Part shown: piece by piece, positions 3,221 to 9,809 of the stretch
Position numbering within the stretch: the first letter of the stretch is position 1
How the letters are laid out: each line of letters opens with the position of its first letter
IMG/VR virus record: IMGVR_UViG_3300029448_000051
Coordinates: 26,908-55,595 of that record
Source of the DNA: a virus
Length of the DNA stretch: 28,688 bases
Strand: one strand, 5' to 3'
Translations under genes and position numbers: made by a program
The notes under the pieces: generated by a model
The model's database searches: none
What the model saw: only the letters and a program-made list of their open reading frames with translations
What the model was told of the DNA's origin: nothing

Positions 3221-3605
3221 TATTTACCTCCTTTATTTTTTTTTGTAGTCCCTGTTTTAACATATCTTCAGCTTGTTGCCTGTTTAAGGCTTCCATTTTT
3301 TCTTTAGATTCTATCATTCCCCAGAGTATACATAAATATACTATAGCGTCTGTTAATCTACCTTTTACATTTTCTCTTTGTGATACGTGACCTTTAATAT
3401 AAGATGCAATACCATCTATATGCTTCATAAGATATATCCAAAGAACCATTTCCTGTGCATTCCCTGTTTGATTAGCTATTCTTTGAAAATTAGCAAATAC
3501 ATTATCTTTATTCATTGCATATTCTTTTTGACCTTCAGTATGCATAGTTTTAACTGTGTCAAGTATCCTATCTATTAGAGCTATCATTTCCTTGTGTTTC
3601 ATCAT
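3189..3605 (-). CDS. All-helical DUF1599/MazG-like protein, possible nucleotide pyrophosphohydrolase
   Basis: 138 residues, all helical. The pattern E28-Y-A, N35-VFANF, K61-H62 and G82-RLTDAIVYL resembles the DUF1599 and MazG-like group, in which Glu/Asp residues of a four-helix bundle bind Mg and (d)NTP. In phages such proteins are placed in nucleotide-pool control or base modification. The match is by motif recall only; the canonical MazG EExxE is not obvious. The ATG at 3605 overlaps the primase stop (ATGA), so the two are coupled. Confidence 0.5.
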   Translation of the reverse strand: MMKHKEMIALIDRILDTVKTMHTEGQKEYAMNKDNVFANFQRIANQTGNAQEMVLWIYLMKHIDGIASYIKGHVSQRENVKGRLTDAIVYLCILWGMIESKEKMEALNRQQAEDMLKQGLQKKIKEVNNGTSYIENSL

Positions 3606-5350
3606 TCTATCCTTACATTATTAACATTTAATCTTACGTTAAGAAATTCCTTCTCACGATTCTTATCACTTTTAACATGTATCATTTCTATAAGATTTGT
3701 TTCTTTGTTTCTATATGGTGCTAACGATAACAACTTATTAGCATTATATGCTACACGAAACGAACCTCTAGATGATGATATATCCATACCTTCTTTAAAA
3801 GCTGATTTACTAATCTCACTAACAGCAAACACAACTACGTTGTATTTTACTGCAAGTTCCATAAGAGCTTGAGAAGCTTCCTCTACTTTCATATTATTAT
3901 CTTGACGTTTACTTTTAAATAAACCCATATGGTCAACTACTACAAGTTCAGGTTTGTTTTCCATCATAGATATTTTCTTTTCTATATCACTAGGATATGG
4001 AGAAGAGTAATCTACAGTAAGATAGTCAAACTTATCTTCTTGTCCATTTTGCAATTGACTGTAATGTTGTTCTAATTGCTCATGTGTCCATTTATTTTCT
4101 ATCATTACAAACCTAGACCATATTTGCCTTGGAGACATTTCCATCTCAATAAAATATGTTGGTTTCTTTAATGCAACTATCCAGTTTTGTAATAACATTG
4201 TCTTCATACTTGCAGGTGGAGCTTGTATAATAACTACTTCACCTGGATATATAGGAAAGTCTTGACCATATAAATGTCCTATATTGATAGGGTCTACATC
4301 TTTTGCATAGAATTCTATTAATTCTTTTTCCATAGCAGAAGCACTCATAACATTTTCTGTTCTTAAGCTTTTTCTACCTCTATGCAATTTACATGTACTA
4401 TCACAATAGAATTTAATTATAGGGTCGTCCCAGCCATATGTATATCCTTGTCCACCATGTCCATCATAACAACCTTTGATAATATTCTCCATTTCTTCTT
4501 CTTTAAATGGATGCTGAACACTAACTTTTTGTCGCCATGTTTCCATAATGTTATATACTATATCTTTAGGAAATCTCCATCTAAGATATGCAGCAATACG
4601 TAATGCAACCATATGTCTTTTACCTCTAGGAGCACCTTCCATCATCTTTTGAATGCATGTATGATGCTTACCGTCATCTTTTACTTCTACAGATACAGGT
4701 TTGTTAACTACTTGTTTAACCATAACATCAAATACAGGCTTATCTACAGGATCTACAGGCTCAACGTCTTTTTGTTCTGAAGCATAGTTTTTAATAAACT
4801 CTTTAAAATCTTCTTCATCACAATTCATCATTTTATTAACAAAATCATCTTTTATTTGAACTTTAAATAAACCAGATTTACTATTTCTAGTATTGTTAAT
4901 CCTAATGATTCTAGTTTTATCTGTAACAGATGGGTCGGCTATATTAAATATACCTTTATCTGTTAGCTCTTTCTTTACAGCTATGTGTAAATCTTTATGA
5001 GCTTCCCATTTAAATGCACTTTGATGTATACCTACATGAAACCCAGTACCACTAAAATAAATTTTACTGGGAACATCTAGTTGTTTTAAGAGTTCAAGTA
5101 AACCTCCTAATTTATCTCTTGCATCTAGTGTATTTTCTCCATCAACATCTAATAAGAATTCTTCTGGTATATATATCTTACCATCGAATCCAGACAATGA
5201 TTTATTATCACTATAATAGTTTTTTACATCATCATCATAATCATATAAAGAACAAAATGTATCATTCTCTATTCCTTCCCATTGCTCTATATCATCAGCA
5301 TCTTGAAAGTGATGTCTGTTTGATAATCCAAACGCAAATTCTTTAATCAT
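3602..5350 (-). CDS. AEP-type primase fused to a DnaB/RecA-like helicase
   Basis: 582 residues with three parts. Residues about 1-170 look like an archaeo-eukaryotic primase: D68-V-D70, S100-GTGFH105 and R147-IIRINNTRN. Residues about 230-320 carry cysteines C232, C294, C316 and C320 around GAPRGKRH, like a PriCT/PriL-type linker that may bind zinc or an iron-sulfur cluster. Residues about 365-582 form a RecA fold with Walker B LVVVDHMG (469-476). The P-loop is degenerate: APPASMKT (377-384), with Met where the glycine before Lys is expected. Such fusions prime and unwind the phage fork. It lies just downstream of SSB and ERF. Its leader holds a large folded element (5370-5490). Start ATG 5350 has GGAGA nearby. 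Confidence 0.85.
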   Translation of the reverse strand: MIKEFAFGLSNRHHFQDADDIEQWEGIENDTFCSLYDYDDDVKNYYSDNKSLSGFDGKIYIPEEFLLDVDGENTLDARDKLGGLLELLKQLDVPSKIYFSGTGFHVGIHQSAFKWEAHKDLHIAVKKELTDKGIFNIADPSVTDKTRIIRINNTRNSKSGLFKVQIKDDFVNKMMNCDEEDFKEFIKNYASEQKDVEPVDPVDKPVFDVMVKQVVNKPVSVEVKDDGKHHTCIQKMMEGAPRGKRHMVALRIAAYLRWRFPKDIVYNIMETWRQKVSVQHPFKEEEMENIIKGCYDGHGGQGYTYGWDDPIIKFYCDSTCKLHRGRKSLRTENVMSASAMEKELIEFYAKDVDPINIGHLYGQDFPIYPGEVVIIQAPPASMKTMLLQNWIVALKKPTYFIEMEMSPRQIWSRFVMIENKWTHEQLEQHYSQLQNGQEDKFDYLTVDYSSPYPSDIEKKISMMENKPELVVVDHMGLFKSKRQDNNMKVEEASQALMELAVKYNVVVFAVSEISKSAFKEGMDISSSRGSFRVAYNANKLLSLAPYRNKETNLIEMIHVKSDKNREKEFLNVRLNVNNVRIE

Positions 5351-5503: not shown

Positions 5504-6070
5504 TTAAAACGGTATTTCATCAGTCGATGCTGTACTTGTTTCATTAGTCGTAGTGGAGGATACAAAACTAGTATCTGCCGTTGCTTCCTGTGCTTTAGCC
5601 ATTACTTTAGGTTTAATAAACTCTTGATAATACTTTTCGGCTCTGCCTTTCCAGTATATCACATCATCGCTTGTAAACTCTTCAGCAACATTTTTAAACT
5701 CTGTAGGAGCAAACTGTTTTAATATTCTACTATATTTACCATCTTTATATAAGTATATATTAACTTGTTTACTTGCTAAAAGTCCTGGGTTGTCATCCAT
5801 TTTGATCACCATTTTACCATTGTCACCTTCAAGTCCACCTGTTATACCAGCATTAGCAAATCTAAAGACTTGGCCCATAGCCCATTCTTCACCATTACTA
5901 ACATTAGCATAAATTCTAGCGTTGAAATTATCAGGATAGCCTTCAAACCACACATCTATATATTTAGCATCATTATAAACACCATATGCTGCTCTAGATA
6001 TAGTTGCAGTTTTCCAACCTTCACCATAATTAGTTCCACCACCTTTACTTACTGTCATTGTTCTAGCCAT
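5504..6070 (-). CDS. Single-stranded DNA-binding protein with acidic DEIPF tail
   Basis: 188 residues. The last residues, TSTASTDEIPF, reproduce the acidic amphipathic tip of bacterial SSB proteins (DDIPF), which recruits partner enzymes; the preceding region 160-182 is a low-complexity Thr/Ser/Glu linker, also as in SSB. The N-terminal part is beta-rich with aromatic residues (YIDVWFEGYPDNFNARIYAN), fitting an OB-like fold, though it is not a clear match to the canonical SSB family. It binds ssDNA at forks and recombination intermediates. Start ATG 6070 has GGAG at good distance and overlaps the ERF stop by 8 nt, so SSB and ERF are coupled, as expected of an annealase and its SSB partner. 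Confidence 0.75.
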   Translation of the reverse strand: MARTMTVSKGGGTNYGEGWKTATISRAAYGVYNDAKYIDVWFEGYPDNFNARIYANVSNGEEWAMGQVFRFANAGITGGLEGDNGKMVIKMDDNPGLLASKQVNIYLYKDGKYSRILKQFAPTEFKNVAEEFTSDDVIYWKGRAEKYYQEFIKPKVMAKAQEATADTSFVSSTTTNETSTASTDEIPF

Positions 6071-6542
6071 TAGTTACTCCTTGTTTTTGAATTGAATTAC
6101 CATCATCATCTGTTTGTGCTATACCTATCATAGCAGACAAAGAAAATCGTCTAGCATATGTTATTGTAGCACCTACTGCTTGTGCATCTTTCTTACCACC
6201 AACAGGCATTTTTAGTTTAGATTTAATCCATTGACCTGATGAGTGTAATAACATAGTAGTTACATAGAAACTACCTTTATCACAGGTATCATTTCCCTGT
6301 ATTATCGATAAACCATTTTCTGTTAGTTGTGGAAAGCAAGATTTAATTACAGTATCTAAATCAGCGTAATCGGATTTAAAGAATGGATTTACACTACCTT
6401 TTTTAGCACCACGCATTTTAGATTGTGCCTTAGCTAAAGCTGCTGCAAGTTTATCTATTTGTGGTGATTTCCATTCATCAGACCTTCTATCTCCTTCTAC
6501 TTTTTGGGGGACAGAATTCTGTACTTCATTGAGTTCTTCCAT
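6063..6542 (-). CDS. erf: ERF-family single-strand annealing recombinase
   Basis: 159 residues matching the ERF superfamily: an N-terminal helix (KLAAALAKAQSKM), NPFFKSDYADLDTV at 52-65, a beta region (SFYVTTMLLHSSGQWI), then QAVGATITYARRFSLSAMIG at 121-140 and the acidic DDDGN at 146-149. ERF proteins anneal homologous single strands for phage recombination and genome circularisation. Length is short for the family but the whole core is present. SD GGAG lies 5 nt before ATG 6542. It forms a coupled pair with SSB. Confidence 0.88.
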   Translation of the reverse strand: MEELNEVQNSVPQKVEGDRRSDEWKSPQIDKLAAALAKAQSKMRGAKKGSVNPFFKSDYADLDTVIKSCFPQLTENGLSIIQGNDTCDKGSFYVTTMLLHSSGQWIKSKLKMPVGGKKDAQAVGATITYARRFSLSAMIGIAQTDDDGNSIQKQGVTNG

Positions 6543-6607: not shown

Positions 6608-7270
6608 CTATTTTGCAAGTATCATTGTAGGAAAATTAAATGAAAATTTCTTCTCGTAAGGCTGGTTAGTTATTAACTTTCTAACTGCGTTACAAATAAA
6701 ACTTCCACTCATATTACTACAATAACTTGTTGCTTTCATTGTGCATGGTTCTGGATCAGATTGACCGTCAGGATACCATGTTTTTAAGTATTGCTTTAGT
6801 GTTGGTTTAGGCAATATATACTGTTGGTAATGTTCTGCACCCATACGACCGTCAATAATAGCAAAAGGTTTGTTTCTATTATTAGATATATGAGTTACTG
6901 CATCTAATCTAGATGTCATACTATCAAAACCAAGTATTACTATGTCATTGTGCTGACTCATAGGTTGATATTCATTGTCTTGTGGAAAATTACCGAAATA
7001 TTTATCGACTGTTTGGGGTTTCCCAGTGATATTTATAATATGATGATACAAACTATCGACTTTACTATTACCTACGTCTTTCATATTATACTGACTCACA
7101 CCTATATTTGGTTGCTCTACTACATCACCATCATATAAAGCAAAGTTTTCTGCTCCCATTCTTGCCAACTGTATGGCTGCAGAGCTACCGATAGCCCCGC
7201 AACCAAGTATGTGGTAAGAATAGTCATTCATATTGCTAACAATATCGCTGAATCTACTATTTCTATCCAT
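6608..7270 (-). CDS. ThiF/E1-like ubiquitin-activating enzyme
   Basis: 220 residues, the size of a lone ThiF/E1 adenylation domain. Motifs: G23-CGAIG28-S (nucleotide loop), D47-G-D49 with N55 and K70 (DGDVVEQPNIG...VGNSKV), and GFD116SMTSR121, all standard for the family. Candidate catalytic cysteines are C176 and C184 in EPCTMKATSYCSNMSG, followed by a helix like the family's C-terminal crossover. ThiF/E1 enzymes adenylate the C-terminal glycine of a Ubl and usually form a thioester. Its ATG overlaps the stop of the JAB gene (TAATG) and carries GGGAGG upstream. Association with Ubl, E2-like and JAB genes argues for protein conjugation rather than thiamin or molybdopterin synthesis, whose other genes are absent. 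Confidence 0.85.
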   Translation of the reverse strand: MDRNSRFSDIVSNMNDYSYHILGCGAIGSSAAIQLARMGAENFALYDGDVVEQPNIGVSQYNMKDVGNSKVDSLYHHIINITGKPQTVDKYFGNFPQDNEYQPMSQHNDIVILGFDSMTSRLDAVTHISNNRNKPFAIIDGRMGAEHYQQYILPKPTLKQYLKTWYPDGQSDPEPCTMKATSYCSNMSGSFICNAVRKLITNQPYEKKFSFNFPTMILAK

Positions 7271-8196
7271 TATATTCCTCCCATGTTAAATGATTGATTA
7301 TAAAAGTCTAACTCTGTATCATCTTCTGGACTTGGATTTAATGATTCATATCCAGGTACACAAGTAATTAATTCATTAGGGCTTATAGTCAACAATTCTT
7401 CAAATGTGCATTCTTCAAGCAATTCAACAGATAAAGGCATTTCAGCTTTCTTTAATCTTCTGTTTAAATCTTTGATTTTATTAGCATACTTCTTATAATT
7501 GTATTCTCCTGCTATAAATCCTGAGTTTACTTTATCTACTTTCTCTATTAACTGTAACCACGCCATTGTTATAATGTTCTCTTCTGACGGATCATTGTTA
7601 AATAGACCTGTTTGTCCAAGATGCCTAGTATATCCATACTTATTAGTTATACCTTTGTAACTTGAACCGCTATTATACCAAGTCTTTTCAGGTTCTTTAC
7701 ATAAAGCTTTAACCTCATTAGTAATAGACTTAGGTACATTATACGAATCATCTTTACCTTGTATTGTCAATTCTACATCTTCATGCATAGCAAATGGTTT
7801 CCACACAGATACTCTACATTTGTATTCTTCTTTAACATTAACAACTAAAGCAAAGCTTAAATCACCATCTTCAAACTCATCTATAGTATTAGTATCTGTA
7901 CCACTCCAGAATGCATCCATCTTAGCATGAGAGTGCCACCAACAGAATCTTATATTGTCTCCACTATATTTCATAGCTGCTTTACTATAATATAGTGCTA
8001 ACTCTGTTTTATCTAATACACATAGAGCTGCTGATACTTCTTGTTTTAGTATAACTGGGTCTAGAATTTGCCAATCACCATCTTTATCTTGTCTAGTTAC
8101 AGCCATACCACCTATTTCTGTGCCCCATTGTTCTTCAGAGCTTCTGGCATAATTTATAATTTTATCCCAGTCTTTTTGTTTTATATATACTTCCAT
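7270..8196 (-). CDS. JAMM/JAB-domain metallopeptidase (Ubl-processing or deconjugating)
   Basis: 308 residues. The N-terminal half is a JAB domain with every zinc and catalytic residue: E27 (GTEIGG), then H88-S-H90, seven residues, S98-G-T-D101, which is the ExnHxHx7SxxD signature. JAMM enzymes cleave after the terminal Gly-Gly of ubiquitin-like proteins. Residues about 150-308 are an extra C-terminal region without a recognised domain, ending NMGGI; it may bind substrate. Start ATG 8196 has GGGAG about 8 nt upstream, and only 1 nt separates it from the E2-like stop. With a Ubl ending GGSY nearby, the simplest role is removal of the Ser-Tyr and/or deconjugation. Confidence 0.88.
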   Translation of the reverse strand: MEVYIKQKDWDKIINYARSSEEQWGTEIGGMAVTRQDKDGDWQILDPVILKQEVSAALCVLDKTELALYYSKAAMKYSGDNIRFCWWHSHAKMDAFWSGTDTNTIDEFEDGDLSFALVVNVKEEYKCRVSVWKPFAMHEDVELTIQGKDDSYNVPKSITNEVKALCKEPEKTWYNSGSSYKGITNKYGYTRHLGQTGLFNNDPSEENIITMAWLQLIEKVDKVNSGFIAGEYNYKKYANKIKDLNRRLKKAEMPLSVELLEECTFEELLTISPNELITCVPGYESLNPSPEDDTELDFYNQSFNMGGI

Positions 8197-8197
8197 T

Positions 8198-9508
8198 TTA
8201 TCGTCTCCCTTGGTTAACTAATTGTAAAGTTGCATGTTCTAACGCTTTTTGAGTTATTTGCTCAGGTGTTAAAGGTTCAGTAGATTGAACGGCTTCTTGA
8301 TAAGCATCACATTTAGCTCTAATAGCGCAGTATTTATCACAGTATGATTCTTCTAAAGGCACTTCATCTTCCACTAAATATCTTAGTTCGCTTATATAGT
8401 TACAATCTTGCCATGACCTTTTACCAACTATTGAATAATACTCAGTACTATTTTCTAAAAAGTTTGGATTGCCATGATAAGCAGTCTCTATCCTGTTTAA
8501 TGGACCTGTATTAGTATCATAATGTGTCATTATTCTATCAAAGAATATTTTTAATGATATAAAATCAAGTGATTTAATACAAGCTTCTATTTCTGTGTCC
8601 ATATTACCCACACATACATATCTAAAATCTGTGTCAGCATGAGTTCTAGTGTAATAACTACCTTGTCTTGCTATATAAGGATGATGTAAATCAGCAAATG
8701 TATTGTAATATCCACCAATATTATACAACCATCTTTTATGATTATTTCTTCTAGATACAACTGAACTTGCAGGTATATTGTTAACGTCCATATTCTTAGC
8801 TAACAATATTGCATTAATAGCTCTTGATACTGATATTTTAATAGTCAAATGACCTTCACCTGGTATCAATATCTCTGCTATATGATCGGGTGCTTCTACA
8901 TGCCTATATTTAATTACTACATCGCCATAATTGTATGTTACTGCTATGTAATAATCTATTATAGTACTATTATCATTATTATTATACACTGTTTCTAGTT
9001 TAAGTCTAAAAGCTTGATTAGATGCTTCATATTGTCGAGATATATGATTCTTTAATACATTCCAAGCCTCTACTACATCATCAGTATTATCCTGCATTAT
9101 CTGACCTTGAGCTCTAAATGATATAAGTATAGCTTCAATTTCTGATATATTATTCATCAAATTTCTCATTCTATAACTCATTGTTTCTCTAGCTCGTTCT
9201 ACTACCTTAGTTAAACTATTAGCTTTTTTATATAACTCTTGCTGATAATAAACAACTTGCTTAATAATATCATAAGCACCAGGTTTCCAGTAAAACTTTT
9301 TAGTAATACCTAGTTCCTTGCCTCCAGTATGATAATAATAACTTCTTCTATAATCATCTCCTACTGGATTATTAATATAATTATCGTTGAATTGTTCTAT
9401 TAATTCTAATACTCTAGCTTGAGGTCCCATCTGTACTTGTTCTATTAACGCTTTTATATCTGGTTCATAATCAAATACATCTTTTTTATAATTTAATTCT
9501 TCTTGCAT
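8198..9508 (-). CDS. E2-like candidate, 436 aa, in the ubiquitin-like cassette
   Basis: I take ATG 9508 (MQEELNYKK), which has AAGGAAAGGA upstream, as the start; an in-frame ATG at 9577 would put 23 residues through a leader hairpin. Residues about 45-160 are helical. Residues about 180-330 look like an alpha/beta E2-like (UBC/RWD) fold: a beta meander (DYYIAVTYNYGDVVIKYR), then H275-H276-P277-Y and, after a short insert, Y298-V-C299-V-G-N. This recalls the HxP...C(L/V)G pattern of divergent bacterial E2 families, with C299 the possible catalytic cysteine. The C terminus has C369, C390-DKY-C394-AIRAK-C400, resembling iron-sulfur or zinc clusters of RecB/Cas4-type proteins. The E2 assignment is inference from motif and position between Ubl and JAB genes. 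Confidence 0.5.
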   Translation of the reverse strand: MQEELNYKKDVFDYEPDIKALIEQVQMGPQARVLELIEQFNDNYINNPVGDDYRRSYYYHTGGKELGITKKFYWKPGAYDIIKQVVYYQQELYKKANSLTKVVERARETMSYRMRNLMNNISEIEAILISFRAQGQIMQDNTDDVVEAWNVLKNHISRQYEASNQAFRLKLETVYNNNDNSTIIDYYIAVTYNYGDVVIKYRHVEAPDHIAEILIPGEGHLTIKISVSRAINAILLAKNMDVNNIPASSVVSRRNNHKRWLYNIGGYYNTFADLHHPYIARQGSYYTRTHADTDFRYVCVGNMDTEIEACIKSLDFISLKIFFDRIMTHYDTNTGPLNRIETAYHGNPNFLENSTEYYSIVGKRSWQDCNYISELRYLVEDEVPLEESYCDKYCAIRAKCDAYQEAVQSTEPLTPEQITQKALEHATLQLVNQGRR

Positions 9509-9529
9509 TTGTATCCTTTCCTTGGTTTT

Positions 9530-9578
9530 GATGTAAGGGGCAGTAAGTGTGAGTAGGTGAGAAACCACCCCTTTCATC
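9530..9578 (-). promoter_or_regulatory. Leader stem-loop before the E2-like gene
   Basis: GATGtAAGGGG (9530-9540) pairs with CCCCTTtCATC (9568-9578), 10 bp with one T-T mismatch; an inner GGTG/CACC helix (9556-9559 with 9566-9569) competes slightly. It occupies the gap between the Ubl gene and the E2-like gene and ends 21 nt before the E2-like ATG. The same AAGGGG/CCCCTT arms close the leader of the primase gene. Possible processing or attenuation site that sets Ubl output above that of the enzymes. Confidence 0.55.
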
Positions 9579-9593
9579 GTTCTTTACACTAAA

Positions 9594-9809
9594 CTAGTAA
9601 CTGCCGCCAGATTTATTATTCTGAACAGCTGCTACTACGGAACCATCTTCAAGTTCATGTGTATCCGCCACATTAGTGCCATTAACAGCTATATCAGCCG
9701 TTGGACTAATTTCTAACTCTGATCTTAATTGAGATACTGTTGATGAAGTCACTTCCTTGTCAACAAATCCACCACCTGCTAACCATCTTATTGTTCTAAC
9801 ATTTGCCAT
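9594..9809 (-). CDS. Ubiquitin-like beta-grasp protein with C-terminal Gly-Gly-Ser-Tyr
   Basis: 71 residues with beta-grasp layout: strand VRTIRWLAGGG, strand KEVTSS, helix TVSQLRSELEI (24-34), strand ADIAVNG (38-44), and ELEDGSVVAAVQ (52-63), as in ThiS/MoaD and bacterial Ubls. The tail NNKSGGSY has Gly68-Gly69 followed by Ser-Tyr, so a protease must remove two residues to expose the diglycine. AGGAGG lies 9 nt before ATG 9809, the strongest SD type in the window, which fits a protein needed in excess over its enzymes. It is the first gene of the Ubl/E2/JAB/E1 set. A sulfur-carrier role is the alternative, less likely given the JAB and E2-like partners. Confidence 0.8.
   Translation of the reverse strand: MANVRTIRWLAGGGFVDKEVTSSTVSQLRSELEISPTADIAVNGTNVADTHELEDGSVVAAVQNNKSGGSY

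Follow-up and report, generated by a model that had tools for sequence, protein, structure and literature searches.

A viral four-gene cassette for a probable ubiquitin-like conjugation system

Protein conjugation by ubiquitin-like (Ubl) modifiers in bacteria has so far been known as host defence. Here we describe four clustered genes of a virus that probably encode a reversible Ubl-protein conjugation system of the virus itself, serving phage replication or takeover; from sequence, we put the probability of this reading at roughly 0.6. The genes lie in IMG/VR virus record IMGVR_UViG_3300029448_000051 (55,595 bases), of which bases 26908-55595 (28,688 nucleotides [nt]; the window) were analysed. 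An original prediction, made from the letters of the window alone, had described four leftward genes, for a beta-grasp protein with a Gly-Gly tail, an E2-like protein, a JAMM peptidase and a ThiF/E1 protein, as the phage's own set beside its recombination and replication genes. All four were found on the minus strand where they had been placed. Their viral ownership was borne out by the plus strand of the same record, which encodes terminase, portal and capsid proteins, and the set indeed adjoins genes for an Erf-type protein, a protein resembling single-stranded-DNA-binding protein (SSB) and a primase-helicase. In the order of the cassette, the genes are as follows (aa, amino acids):

9594 to 9809, minus strand: Ubl, a predicted 71-aa beta-grasp protein with the tail ...NNKSGG-SY (K-S-G-G-S-Y end)
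8198 to 9508, minus strand: E2-like candidate of 436 aa (459 aa from 9577, the start of the longest open reading frame), with an invariant Cys322 in the setting HP(Y)I...CxG
7270 to 8196, minus strand: predicted JAB/JAMM metallo-isopeptidase with E27, H88-S-H90, S98 and D101, the complete E-HxHx7SxxD set
6608 to 7270, minus strand: predicted E1/ThiF-like adenylating enzyme with R6, G23-C-G-A-I-G28, D47/D49, N55, K70 and D116, and a candidate thioester Cys176 (CTMK)

Conservation of the cassette

Relatives of the ThiF-like protein were found on 58 IMG/VR contigs, and the cassette profiles were built from these. Where at least 1 kb of sequence was available upstream of the ThiF gene, the JAB gene always lay there (43/43 contigs), and the E2-like gene was present in 31/31 contigs with at least 3.2 kb. 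When at least 5 kb upstream of ThiF was available, all four genes were found in the same order and on one strand (23/23 contigs). Co-occurrence of this kind is far beyond chance, and it extends to other phage groups (see below); the original prediction had named the failure of the four homologs ever to co-occur in other phages as the outcome that would count against it. Inserted genes can separate the Ubl and E2-like genes, and the cassette still stays together. When the window was compared with seven relatives, the ratio of nonsynonymous to synonymous substitution rates (dN/dS) was 0.07-0.18 for Ubl, 0.10-0.15 for ThiF, 0.14-0.33 for JAB and 0.32-0.43 for the E2-like gene. All four genes are under purifying selection (dN/dS well under 1), and the E2-like protein is the fastest-evolving member, with 44-61% identity versus 81-90% for ThiF.

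A prophage or host origin was also considered and was rejected: a search of 84,980 genomes by exact peptides returned no ThiF relative. In an alignment search of genomes, the sole full-length match to ThiF lay on a contig (SABI01000248.1) that had been binned in a Spirochaetia metagenome-assembled genome but consists of crAss-like phage DNA.

The encoded proteins

The ThiF-like protein matched Pfam ThiF (6e-16) and the PADLOC E1-E2 model (1.4e-15). Its ATP motif and catalytic residues are conserved, with R6, G23, G25, D47, D49, N55, K70 and D116 invariant among aligned relatives, and these features identify it as a putative E1/ThiF-family adenylating enzyme. Cys176, kept in 57/57 relatives and aligned with the PSCS Cys of PRTRC ThiF, is its candidate thioester Cys. 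The JAB protein matched PADLOC JAB (1.9e-6) and Pfam Prok-JAB (0.0037), and E27, H88, H90, S98 and D101 were invariant in all aligned relatives covering them (46/46 or 47/47). The JAMM and ThiF/E1 identities of the original prediction, including the E-HxHx7SxxD signature, are thus upheld. In Flavobacterium phage Fpv1, a LAGLIDADG homing-endonuclease gene (66396-67145; Pfam 3e-10) interrupts the JAB gene, and no Rfam intron match was found there.

The 71-aa protein matched Pfam ThiS (E=4e-4); a search of PDB sequences with the Ubl profile gave no significant match. Its AlphaFold (AF2) model, with a predicted local distance difference test score (pLDDT) of 81, has the strand-strand-helix-strand-strand order of the beta-grasp, and Foldseek matched the model to ThiS-like Mth1743 (2.9e-4) and to an archaeal (C. 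subterraneum) ubiquitin (6.8e-4). Gly-Gly was kept in 29/29 aligned Ubls, each with a variable tail of at least one residue after it. Taken together, model and alignment agree with the beta-grasp identity proposed originally, and the protein is predicted to be a beta-grasp ubiquitin-like modifier.

The E2-like candidate was harder to place. Its residue numbers here follow the 459-aa numbering. Ahead of the ATG at 9508 stands AAGGAAAGGA, and a start there leaves a gap of 85 nt to the Ubl gene, as close relatives also have; for these reasons the 436-aa start, and with it the length first given, is probably right, while the reading frame could reach 459 aa. P300, Cys322, G324, Cys392, Cys417 and Cys423 were invariant in an alignment of 29-36 relatives, with Cys322 kept in 34/34 in its HP(Y)I...CxG setting. 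The conserved C-terminal cluster C392/C417/C423 may bind zinc. The AF2 model (pLDDT 82; predicted template-modelling score 0.76) consists of a helix, antiparallel strands, the HP...Cys segment and two helices, an arrangement that is UBC-like in its order of strands and helices alone, with no match among PDB folds. Against BFVD, the model matched a crAss-like virus protein (1.5e-3) and a 420-aa protein of FpV4 size (3e-3). A PDB sequence search with the E2-like profile gave nothing significant. When compared by hhalign with three PRTRC-B proteins, the family aligned exactly on the Cys motif, weakly and not significantly (P=0.011); profile comparisons with a jumbo-phage protein and with trimmed crAss gp78 also fell on the Cys motif, none of them significantly. 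A match to XseA (0.0027) covered the helical region 117-236, was far under the cut-off and was disregarded. Given that the protein has no credible family match, the E2 label was a guess when it was made, and what has since backed it is motif and topology. The invariant Cys in HP...CxG, the UBC-like order and the structural link to crAss-like and FpV4 counterparts speak for it, whereas a UBC family or fold match in Pfam and PDB is missing. We conclude that the protein is likely E2-like in function, and not a proven E2.

Genomic setting and related cassettes in other phages

Downstream of ThiF, the cassette is followed by these genes:

6063 to 6542, minus strand: Erf-type single-stranded-DNA-annealing protein (Pfam ERF 5e-24)
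5504 to 6070, minus strand: SSB-like protein with C-terminus DEIPF, named for its tail and position only
3602 to 5350, minus strand: primase-helicase with a DnaB_C domain (Pfam DnaB_C 9e-12)

Among the relatives, 51/55 loci had an SSB-like protein close to ThiF, which almost always carried the -PF tip, and 41/42 had the primase-helicase; an Erf relative lay downstream of ThiF in 32/56 loci, and elsewhere a different protein fills this slot. Shine-Dalgarno sites precede many genes; a promoter and terminator scan gave results at chance level. In an attempted host assignment, the closest terminase match was just 25% identical. The window also encodes, at 2009-2872 on the minus strand, a radical-SAM protein of the spore photoproduct lyase family (Pfam SPL 1e-24) that was present in three relatives only. 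The same phage has a 2875-aa open reading frame without Pfam match (L117:2386-11013), presumably for a virion protein.

Searching with ThiF yielded 82 phage records, comprising crAss-like Steigviridae, Flavobacterium FpV-type phages, Xanthomonas/Erwinia jumbo phages and a few others. A homologous cassette is carried by crAss001 (gp79-gp76) and nine relatives (eight crAss-like phages and FpV4). In crAss001-type cassettes, a protein with a Ubl-like N-terminus and an extension is followed by an approximately 400-aa HSH...CxG protein, JAB and ThiF. The JAB families of the window type and the crAss type aligned over 299 columns by hhalign (E=3.6e-38), and the crAss/FpV4 ThiF is related to that of the window by tblastn. 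Proteins gp79 and gp78 of crAss matched PHROG families of FpV4 proteins (5e-4 and 3e-7, respectively), all listed as of 'unknown function'. The block is flanked in crAss-like genomes by the DNA primase gene on one side and a uracil-DNA glycosylase (UDG) gene on the other; in FpV4 the UDG gene is upstream instead. Only part of the crAss-like phages have the cassette: primase was found in 138 records, JAB in 74 and Ubl in 45, the last count coming from a query that misses the FpV group.

In the jumbo phages PhiXhv-12, PhiXhv-15 and Ep032, which infect Xanthomonas/Erwinia, the Ubl ends exactly in Gly-Gly and adjoins an 892-aa protein (HPHM...HGSLCLG) and ThiF. The PhiXhv-12 genome gave no Prok-JAB match; crAss001, DAC15 and FpV4 gave one each. 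Searches of the linked records with Prok_Ub and Prok-E2_D returned no match, and the controls were equally silent. A human-gut phage contig (L078:5015-6624) holds a JAB-ThiF pair of another type (QGHSHVNMATNPSGVD motif) with a reverse-transcriptase-like open reading frame nearby.

Proposed role, alternatives and known systems

In the mechanism that we propose, the Ubl would be made with a few residues past Gly-Gly, and JAB, judged by its family and residues, would trim this tail. The ThiF-like E1 would adenylate the exposed Gly-Gly end and then take the Ubl onto Cys176, from where the E2-like transferase would use its Cys322 to hand it on to lysines in one target or a few; JAB may later strip the Ubl from them, reversing the modification. 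Because the cassette is invariant in the replication/recombination block of at least two phage lineages, the targets would most likely be phage or host proteins of DNA replication, recombination or single-stranded-DNA binding, the replisome being a guess from position. The same invariant place favours a core role in replication or takeover over accessory counter-defence. Sequence is compatible with each of the three functions that the original prediction had named: tagging of a host or phage protein, countering of a host Ubl-like defence, and modification of the phage's own replisome or virions. A wider proposal, which we consider less likely than not, is that several unrelated phage lineages (the 55-kb IMG/VR phages, Steigviridae crAss phages, FpV4-type phages and jumbo phages) share a core virus-owned Ubl system with a divergent E2 family that reversibly tags replication or recombination proteins in the course of infection, as a phage counterpart of the control of the eukaryotic replisome by SUMO and ubiquitin.

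Several observations weigh against conjugation by these four proteins. Pfam returned no E2 match for the 29 members of the E2-like family searched, and no E2 was among the PDB fold matches listed for the model by Foldseek. The Ubl of crAss-like phages has SG-A/T instead of GG at its junction and belongs to a longer protein, and the two Ubl families match weakly (30 columns, probability 22%). The contrast between the tails of all 29 JAB-linked Ubls and the bare -GG of the JAB-less jumbo phages speaks for the proposed mechanism, but it is drawn from a single jumbo-phage lineage. Gene position need not betray targets, and trios of Ubl, JAB and E1 also act as sulfur carriers.

In the last case, a JAB-trimmed and ThiF-adenylated Ubl would be thiocarboxylated and act as the sulfur donor for a metabolite, tRNA or DNA base. 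The thioquinolobactin (QbsE/C/D) and CysO/Mec+ pathways are precedents with the same three parts, and JAB removal of a short tail after Gly-Gly is the QbsE pattern. In Pfam the Ubl scores best against ThiS, and in NCBIfam the ThiF-like protein scores best against the thiamine-synthesis ThiF, though far under cut-off. We nevertheless regard sulfur transfer, the main rival of the proposed mechanism, as unlikely: neither a rhodanese nor a cysteine desulfurase is present in the 55.6-kb record (sulfur might yet come from the host), no thiamine or molybdopterin genes were among the genes scanned, the neighbours are replication genes, and the E2-like protein, with its invariant Cys and its presence in all 31 contigs, would have no role. 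Somewhat less improbable is true Ubl conjugation in which the 436-aa protein serves not as an E2 but as chief substrate, adaptor or scaffold, and E1 hands over the Ubl directly, as has been proposed for small archaeal modifier proteins (SAMPs). The missing E2 matches, the fastest evolution among the four and the possibly zinc-binding Cys cluster all fit such a protein; its invariant Cys in HP...CxG, its UBC-like element order, the way in which the profile comparisons converge on this Cys, and the recurrence of the motif in the jumbo-phage system do not. Counter-defence seems the least probable of these. Here, the phage machinery would act on host immune proteins, such as those of Bil- or CBASS-type (cyclic-oligonucleotide-based anti-phage signalling system) Ubl defences, by tagging, masking or decoying them, and JAB would strip defensive Ubls off virion proteins. 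Host Ubl systems do oppose phages (CBASS Cap2, PMC10097602; Bil, as cited in PMC12135933). The E1 also matches the PADLOC E1-E2 defence models. However, counter-defence genes usually sit in variable regions, whereas the cassette keeps a constant place in the replication block, and an own Ubl and E1 would be superfluous for mere stripping.

If the preferred reading of virus-encoded Ubl conjugation is true, viruses run a protein-tagging programme of their own, which is fixed in their replication block and extends to crAss phages of the human gut that can be cultured. Which proteins phages tag, and to what end, then becomes a question that can be tested, and the history of the ubiquitin system may gain a new E2 family. 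The annotation of dozens of phage records, where the cassette genes are currently labelled 'thiamine biosynthesis protein' or 'hypothetical', would be corrected as well. Bacterial Ubl/E1/E2/JAB operons are known from the work of Iyer, Burroughs and Aravind (PMC1779556). In their main text, neither these authors' jumbo-phage survey (PMC7824862) nor crAss phage papers (PMC7886860, PMC6235969, PMC10172136) mention such a cassette. No account of a phage Ubl-conjugation cassette was found in a search that left out subscription literature, so that an earlier description is possible.

Among known systems, type 6d (PRTRC-like) operons (PMC1779556) likewise cluster separate genes for a small Ubl, JAB, an E1-like and an E2-like protein; their E2 candidates have an invariant Cys in a CxG setting, and the ThiF Cys aligns. 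Unlike these, the window cassette is phage-borne and set within a phage replication block, its JAB and ThiF are far under the PRTRC cut-offs, and the extra alpha-helical gene was not seen. Membership in PRTRC was rejected, as no Prok-E2_D (PF14460) match was found in any of the 29 E2-like members and the PRTRC-B alignment was not significant. The Emticicia plasmid pEMTOL01 (L080:3732-7176) carries a type 6A-like pair, with a metallo-beta-lactamase-like protein and an apparent E2-E1-JAB fusion. Bil has the same four functions (Ubl, E2, JAB and E1) in four genes; it is a host defence that tags phage tails (as cited in PMC12135933), whereas here the set belongs to the phage. By PADLOC, the E1 and JAB of the window match generic models, and the Ubl and E2-like protein have no match. 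With CBASS Cap2/Cap3 the cassette shares JAB-type reversal and an E1 domain (7tsx, at 3.6e-5, is among the nearest solved structures by sequence), but Cap2 is an E2-E1 fusion that conjugates a cyclase, not a Ubl (PMC10097602), and no cyclase was seen here. Lambda-type phages also encode a Ubl (TAPI) and a JAB/NlpC protein (TAPK; PMC1779556); these are tail genes without E1 or E2, whereas the window has an E1 and places its set among replication genes. Finally, the JAMM de-SAMPylases of Borgs (PMC12660748), which are multicopy proteases of archaeal elements and not a four-gene cassette, resemble the present case in that a virus-like element carries JAMM proteases and, in one Borg, a SAMP as well.

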